In this document: positions 33,432-34,841 of the stretch, in pieces
Layout of the letters: each line of letters begins with the position of its first letter
Position numbering within the stretch: the first letter of the stretch is position 1
Origin: Chloroflexota bacterium
Lineage (GTDB): Bacteria; Chloroflexota; UBA6077; FW602-bin22; JAMCYS01
Assembly (NCBI GenBank): GCA_023473795.1
Contig: JAMCYS010000119.1
Location: 1-37,647, forward strand
Direction of reading: 5' to 3'
DNA: 37,647 bases
Translations under genes and position numbers: made by a program
Notes under the pieces: generated by a model
What the model was told of the DNA's origin: nothing
What the model saw: only the letters and a program-made list of their open reading frames with translations
Database searches by the model: none

Positions 33432-33461
33432 GGCGGCGTTGGCGCCGGCGGGAGGGGGCGG

Positions 33462-34841
33462 ATGGGGCACAAGAAACAACTGCTGGCGGCGTTCGGCTGC
33501 CTGGCGGCAGTGCTGGCAGCCCTGCTCCTGGCCAGCCCCCGGGAGACGGCCAGGGCGCAGGTGCAGCCGACTTACGCCGTCTACCTGCCCTTCCTGGTCA
33601 ACCGCTGGCAGGAACCTGCCGTCGTGTCGCCCAACGATCCCTACTTCGCCAATGGTTACCAGTGGGGCCTCTACAACTACGGCCAGGATGGCGGCACGGC
33701 CGGAGCCGACATCGACGCCCGCCGCGCCTGGGGCCTGACGGTGGGCGAGAGCAATGCCGCCATCGCCATCGTGGACTCAGGCATCGACGCCAGCCATCCG
33801 GAGTTCGCCGGCAAGGTTCTGTCTGGGTGGAACTGCGTCGACAATAGCCCCAACACTAACGACGACTTCTACCACGGAACGATGGTGGCCGGCATCGCGG
33901 CGGCCAATACAAGCAACGCCACGGGCGTCGCCGGCGTGGCTTGGAACACCCGCTTGATGCCGGTGAAGGTGCTGGATGGCTCCGGACATGGCACCGATAG
34001 TACCCTTGCTTGTGGCATCGTGTATGCGGCCGACCACGGGGCGCGAGTGATCAACCTTAGTCTTGGTACGGCGTCGCTCTCCAGTACTCTGAACAACGCA
34101 ATCGATTACGCCTACTCCAGGGGTTCGCTTCTGGTAGCGGCCGCCGGCAATTGCGGCGTGGTCGGCACGGAGGGGTGCGCTTATCAGAACCAGCCCAGCT
34201 ACCCGGCGGCATCTCCCCACGTCCTGGCCGTGGCGGCCACCGACCGTAACGACAGCCGGGCCAGTTTCTCCACTCAGGGGTCGTACGTAGACGTGGCAGC
34301 GCCCGGGCAGGATATTCTGAGCACTTATCCGGGTGGCTACGCCTCTGGACGCGGCACTAGTTTCGCCGCCCCCTACGTCTCCGGCCTGGCGGGGCTGCTG
34401 CTGGCCCGGTATCCCGGCTACTCCCCGGACCAGCTGGCGGCGGCCATCGTGAACAACGCCGAGGACCTAGGCCCGATCATCGGCAAGGACCCGGAATACG
34501 GTTGCGGTCGCATCAACGCCTACCGCTCGCTGGCCTACGGCACGGGCGGTGCCGGTTGCCCCGGCTGGAGCTTTGCCGCCGCCGCGGTCACGGCGCAGGC
34601 GATGCCCGCCCAGGCGAAGGGCGCCTTCAAGGCCGGCAAGGTACTGGTCAAGTTCAAGAGCGCCGCCGACGCCCGGGCCAAGGGCCACGCGCGGGAGGCG
34701 GTCCCCGGCCTGGGCATCTACGAGGTGCGCGTGCCTCCGGGCCAGGAGCTGGCCAAGGTGGCCGAGCTGCAGGCCGACCCCGGCGTCGAGTTCGCCGAGC
34801 CAGACTACGTGGTCTACGCCCTGGGCGGGGCGGGCCGCTAA
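33462..34841 (+). CDS. Secreted subtilase (S8) with propeptide-like domain at the C-terminus
   Basis: A 459-residue secreted serine protease. A signal peptide (about 1-32, ending ARAQ) is followed by a TYAVYLPFLVNRW segment, of a kind common in Chloroflexi exoproteins. The catalytic domain starts at SPNDPYFANGYQWGL (about 57) and has the triad Asp105 (AIVDSGID), His138 (HGTMVAGIAA) and Ser300 (GRGTSFAAPYVSG). After the domain ends near 375, residues 389-455 read KVLVKFKSAADARAKG, then YEVRVPPGQEL and finally VEFAEPDYVVYA. That is the pattern of the fervidolysin-type N-terminal propeptide, which usually comes just before PNDPYF. Here it is at the other end. ATG 33462 has GGGAGGGGG upstream. 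Confidence 0.92.
   Translation: MGHKKQLLAAFGCLAAVLAALLLASPRETARAQVQPTYAVYLPFLVNRWQEPAVVSPNDPYFANGYQWGLYNYGQDGGTAGADIDARRAWGLTVGESNAAIAIVDSGIDASHPEFAGKVLSGWNCVDNSPNTNDDFYHGTMVAGIAAANTSNATGVAGVAWNTRLMPVKVLDGSGHGTDSTLACGIVYAADHGARVINLSLGTASLSSTLNNAIDYAYSRGSLLVAAAGNCGVVGTEGCAYQNQPSYPAASPHVLAVAATDRNDSRASFSTQGSYVDVAAPGQDILSTYPGGYASGRGTSFAAPYVSGLAGLLLARYPGYSPDQLAAAIVNNAEDLGPIIGKDPEYGCGRINAYRSLAYGTGGAGCPGWSFAAAAVTAQAMPAQAKGAFKAGKVLVKFKSAADARAKGHAREAVPGLGIYEVRVPPGQELAKVAELQADPGVEFAEPDYVVYALGGAGR

Follow-up and report, generated by a model that had tools for sequence, protein, structure and literature searches.

Domain organization of the subtilase gene

The window, a stretch of 37,647 nucleotides of Chloroflexota DNA, contains on its + strand a gene at 33462..34841, for which the open reading frame and Pfam matches indicate a subtilase of 459 amino acids with a C-terminal propeptide; all features described below lie on the same strand. 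A signal peptide, MGHKKQLLAAFGCLAAVLAALLLASPRETARAQ, predicted by eye from the sequence (33462..33560), is followed by a YAVYLPFLVN motif (33573..33602), which was recognized by motif comparison across proteins with the propeptide after the catalytic domain (C-order) and those with the ordinary arrangement (N-order). The thermitase-like S8 catalytic domain, delimited by Pfam together with alignment and structure comparison, starts with VSPNDPYF and covers residues 55-360 (33624..34541); the Peptidase_S8 model of Pfam matched residues 98-349 with an E value of 2.4e-56 and 191.6 bits (cut-off, 21.8). Alignment placed the catalytic residues at Asp105 (33774..33776), His138 (33873..33875) and Ser300 (34359..34361) and the oxyanion-hole residue at Asn230 (34149..34151), so that the triad and the Asn are complete, and all four are invariant across 24 aligned C-order proteins, save the Ser in one. 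By its sequence the protein is a thermitase-like member of peptidase family S8, and proteolytic activity is predicted.

An Ala/Gln/Pro-rich linker (residues 361-386, 34542..34619), delimited by the AlphaFold2 model, in which its pLDDT is low in part, and by the profile matches, leads to a fervidolysin-type propeptide domain (residues 387-454, 34620..34823), which was defined by profiles, AlphaFold2 and Foldseek. The chain ends with a GGAGR extension past the P1-equivalent Leu454 (34824..34838), which the family alignment showed to be missing in most relatives. The order of signal peptide, S8 catalytic domain and propeptide, which had been proposed in the first-pass annotation, was thus borne out by Pfam on the 459-residue open reading frame. 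The annotation had left room for a second propeptide at the N-terminus, and none was found: residues 1-90 gave no Pfam match, and the reading frame opens at 33432, right behind the radC stop codon, which makes an in-frame N-terminal propeptide further upstream impossible.

Identity and predicted structure of the C-terminal domain

The Pfam model of the fervidolysin N-terminal prodomain, PF22148, matched residues 377-448 when the whole protein was scanned (E value of 5.1e-8, 33.6 bits) and gave 38.3 bits (E value of 1.8e-9) when the last 100 residues were scanned alone, with a cut-off of 21 bits. To avoid circularity, an independent profile was built from the propeptides of other enzymes only, leaving out the window copies, and it scored 62 bits against the C-terminal segment, while the best of 20,000 shuffled sequences reached 13.2 bits. 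Comparison with ordinary subtilase propeptides thus identifies the segment as a propeptide; its presence at the C-terminus agrees with what had been noted from the sequence, and its limits, initially given as 389-455, are corrected to about 387-454. Relative to its relatives, the window propeptide is about 10 residues short around helix 1 (34665-34700).

An AlphaFold2 model of the whole protein, built on a 24-sequence family alignment, had a mean pLDDT of 88.3 and a pTM of 0.91, and its catalytic domain matched thermitase (1THM) with a TM score of 0.96 by target length in Foldseek. Residues 389-453 were modeled as beta-alpha-beta-beta-alpha-beta, with block-mean pLDDT values of 88-97. When the domain alone was compared with the PDB by Foldseek, the three best distinct matches were the PAM protease propeptide, prosubtilisin and the PC1/3 prodomain on furin, at weak values (best E value of 0.012, probability of 0.99, TM score of about 0.5), and lower, also weak, matches included POIA1 (1V5I_B, rank 15) and the ORF2 chain (rank 16). 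A propeptide fold is therefore predicted for the C-terminal domain, and the concern that the segment might fold unlike a subtilase propeptide did not materialize. In the full model, order in the last strand of the propeptide extended to residue 453, against residue 449 for the domain folded alone, and such lengthening in the whole protein would be expected from pairing of the tail with the substrate strands. Furthermore, random placement of a sixth of the chain would hardly be compatible with a pTM of 0.91, which was counted in favor of docking in cis. From these two indirect lines, pTM and strand length, we infer that the propeptide may be docked in cis with its tail in the active site.

A C-order family in Chloroflexota

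In a first scan of GTDB genome contigs, 80 related subtilase loci were collected, and the propeptide always came first where it was recognized in one frame with the catalytic domain. Wider searches of Chloroflexota detected the reversed order in proteins of three genomes, G107 (1349 amino acids, with CARDB and BNR-like domains ahead), G198 (460 amino acids) and G149, which were 36%, 45% and 34% identical, respectively, to the window protein in the C-terminal half. With a profile made from such C-terminal halves, further members were recovered, giving a family of 25 distinct proteins whose C-terminal end is intact, the window protein counted, across many Chloroflexota genomes; the partial genes L204 and L206 and the divergent L208, whose domain escapes the profile, were kept outside this number. 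Homologues with the same order, a search for which had been suggested at the outset, thus number at least 24. The PF22148 domain is located C-terminal to the catalytic domain in all 25 members, opposite to its usual N-terminal place, and an N-terminal propeptide copy was detected in none of them. The gap between the S8 and propeptide profile matches ranges from 26 to 47 residues across the family. The ordinary comparison set consisted of 127 N-order catalytic domains. Outside Chloroflexota, no match spanning the whole profile was found in 42 genomes of other phyla that have homologous subtilases, and none was found at an E value of 1e-28 in 199 genomes of Moorella's phylum (Bacillota), a weak negative given the strict threshold and no positive control.

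The sharing of this order by 25 distinct proteins in many Chloroflexota genomes indicates that it is not an assembly error. It could be argued that the arrangement arose when a propeptide-less subtilase happened to fuse with the beginning of a neighboring subtilase gene that has been lost, or in assembly, since the window genome is alone among 29 of its class in having the reversed order and is a draft assembly with 4.8% contamination. However, the homologues share not only the order but mostly also the end point of the chain, and the dN/dS of the C-terminal domain is below 1 (0.12-0.51 in the seven pairs that allowed an estimate, with mostly lower values for the catalytic domain), from which we conclude that the domain is under purifying selection. 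Such an origin is already refuted for the C-order family, and for the window gene it is scarcely credible.

Two further observations were made among these genes. L206, and also L185, contain a tandem pair on one strand, in which a C-order subtilase gene precedes an N-order one. In the C-order protein L175 (G497:C49), the catalytic Ser is replaced by Ala (GTAQAA), and this protein is probably a dead protease that still carries its propeptide domain, which means that the domain has been retained without activity at least once.

The end of the chain and the processing site of ordinary subtilases

In 22 of the 25 C-order proteins, the chain terminates 3-4 residues beyond the final column of the propeptide profile, often as ...AQ, ...LQ or ...IQ. 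For the ordinary homologues with a recognizable PND motif, this motif starts 5-6 residues past the profile end in 82 of 91 cases, and alignments place the beginning of mature thermitase and of Ak.1 protease two residues ahead of PND, so that the ordinary P1 residue lies at +3 or +4. When the domain profile was aligned to the solved prosegment of BPN' (1SPB_P), its terminal Tyr was reached at profile position 79 of 80. As judged from these alignments, the stop codon of the C-order genes coincides with the processing site (P1) of the ordinary relatives in 22 of 25 cases. Of 24 C-order proteins, 13 end in Gln, which is rare at the corresponding position of the ordinary enzymes (4 of 87; Fisher p of about 1e-7, relatedness ignored). 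The window protein is among the three exceptions, in that Leu454 at P1 is followed by five extra residues, GGAGR, which are probably a trimming site. With a chain terminus that is product-like from the start, most of these proteins would have no need of the usual cut at the C-terminal end of the propeptide.

Proposed mechanism

It is likely that the window protein is a secreted thermitase-type zymogen in which the propeptide, serving as folding chaperone and inhibitor, has been shifted from the N- to the C-terminus and acts in cis. After export and removal of the signal peptide, the catalytic domain would be complete before the propeptide domain emerges. The propeptide, carried on a flexible linker of about 30 residues, would then fold onto the same face as in ordinary pro-subtilases and finish the folding of the enzyme, with its last residues (about Val450-Leu454) occupying the substrate cleft. 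With the chain ending at P1 or a few residues past it, product inhibition would be reached without the usual cut between propeptide and mature enzyme, and in the window protein at most the GGAGR tail would be trimmed. Activation would result from a cut in the linker or from degradation of the propeptide, through another protease or an active copy in trans, and the region of residues 361-386 is the likely place of the release cut. It has been reported that the C-terminal tail of the propeptide sits product-like in the active-site cleft of subtilases (PMC10580911), that the prodomain of CspB is effective in trans (PMC3567191), and that ORF2 chaperones the protease ASP from a 3' gene (PMC5638518). 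Since chaperoning is known both in trans and from a 3' gene, a chaperone that is made last would be no obstacle. Counted against this account are the shortened helix-1 region and the additional GGAGR of the window propeptide, the weak Foldseek values of the domain, and the retention of the domain in L175 despite its lost catalytic Ser.

The same trans activity of the CspB and ASP/ORF2 propeptides, together with the tandem C-order and N-order genes in L206, could suggest that the domain docks on an adjacent molecule of the protein or on a different subtilase present in the same cell. This is very improbable, as the single-chain model is confident (pTM 0.91), the family's linker of 26-47 residues is ample for docking in cis, and the sole other PF22148 match in the window genome belongs to an ordinary subtilase, which has an N-terminal propeptide of its own.

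Alternatively, the C-terminal propeptide could be a permanent lid, tethered and reversible, which would keep the secreted enzyme latent until a signal is received. CspB of Clostridium and PCSK9 retain a bound prodomain, whose P3-P1 residues, at its C-terminus, occlude the site (PMC3567191), although in these proteins the prodomain is N-terminal and is cut from the chain by autoprocessing. A lid of this kind would need no cut at the propeptide end, most chains stopping at P1, and a covalent tether would help rebinding once the domain had dissociated. However, the flexible and poorly conserved linker would be an easy target for the enzyme itself, and loss of the propeptide is usual among degradative subtilases of bacteria (PMC3567191). 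We therefore regard a permanent lid as rather unlikely, and release of the cis-acting propeptide by a linker cut or by degradation as the preferred account.

Evolutionary origin of the reversed order

In a tree of the catalytic domains, the C-order proteins fell into about four groups, with at least four changes of order on the careful tree. A single origin of the C-order proteins was considered and is unsupported on this tree, since grouping all of them together was rejected (AU p = 0.020), as was placing the two main groups together, a grouping that was picked after inspection of the tree (AU p = 0.008). This suggests repeated moves, reversions or domain exchange, within the limits set on the tree by long branches and few columns. 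The propeptide tree, with 78 columns, was too weak to place the source of the C-terminal copies. The window protein groups with the G198 set (SH-aLRT of 92 in the quick tree; bootstrap of 96 and SH-aLRT of 55 in the careful tree). That its gene is the only C-order gene found among the 29 genomes of its class makes lateral acquisition plausible; the window contig may also be misbinned, a matter on which the neighboring radC is uninformative. The broader possibility, that several Chloroflexota lineages independently moved the propeptide to the C-terminus with the stop codon falling precisely on the former processing site, and that a class of self-product-inhibited zymogens resulted which dispense with primary autoprocessing, make their chaperone last and are released by a linker cut, is offered tentatively, and we stop somewhat short of calling it probable.

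A second feature bears on how the order changed. Among 25 C-order rows, in which one gene appears twice, 23 have a YLP-like motif immediately ahead of the catalytic domain, and among 127 N-order rows 3 have one; in the C-order proteins it is placed after the signal peptide or after accessory domains. Some N-order subtilases (proteins L084, L111 and L171) end in the motif [YF]LPLV[MLV][RKN], which is a terminal feature of Chloroflexota secreted proteins and looks like an uncharacterized tag. With the tag N-terminal in the C-order proteins and C-terminal in some ordinary ones, the two ends have changed places. A circular permutation produced by duplication and fission was weighed and set aside, as the position of the tag fits no simple version of it despite the tandem genes in L206. 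Accordingly, of the permuted order that had been read from the sequence, the location of the propeptide after the protease stands, and circular permutation is a poor description of it. In L147/L188 the same motif also ends the product of the gene that lies upstream of the C-order one.

Significance and comparison with known systems

Subtilases are the textbook example of an intramolecular chaperone at the N-terminus, in which folding, primary self-cleavage and rearrangement of the N-terminus follow in a fixed order. A natural reversal of the domains separates these steps, as chaperoning would no longer depend on N-terminal synthesis, nor inhibition on a propeptide-release cut. With the C-order family, one can ask experimentally if primary autoprocessing serves a necessary purpose other than liberating the propeptide C-terminus, and the layout of the family is a natural design for engineered latent proteases. 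No description of C-order subtilases was found in the open literature searched, and as far as this literature shows, the domain order and the built-in product-like terminus are new, while the S8 and PF22148 families are known.

The window protein resembles the thermitase/fervidolysin-type S8 enzymes with N-terminal PF22148 in its catalytic domain, which is 46% identical to thermitase (1THM), and in a propeptide of the same family; it differs from them in the C-terminal location of that propeptide, in a catalytic domain nearly adjoining the signal peptide, and in the N-terminal YLPLV tag. The nearest precedent is the Aeromonas sobria protease ASP with its external chaperone ORF2 (3WQB), in which the protease likewise has no N-terminal propeptide and the chaperone is encoded 3' of it. 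The C-terminus of ORF2 binds at the catalytic site (PMC5638518), the position proposed here for the propeptide tail. However, ORF2 is made as a protein of its own and ASP is of the kexin-like type, whereas the window chaperone is in the same chain and open frame and belongs to PF22148. The stand-alone I9-type inhibitors POIA1 and yeast IB2 are also propeptide-like with an inhibitory C-terminal tail, and differ from the window domain in having no fusion to a protease. Other placements of such domains were observed in the course of the searches: a Fimbriimonas-like genome contains a stand-alone propeptide-like open reading frame (L018:3754-4311) beside an ordinary subtilase, and on a Nitrospirae contig a secretin-like open reading frame (L065:2-2074; GspD-type by eye), which sits upstream of an ordinary subtilase, carries a PF22148-like domain at its end (residues 615-686).
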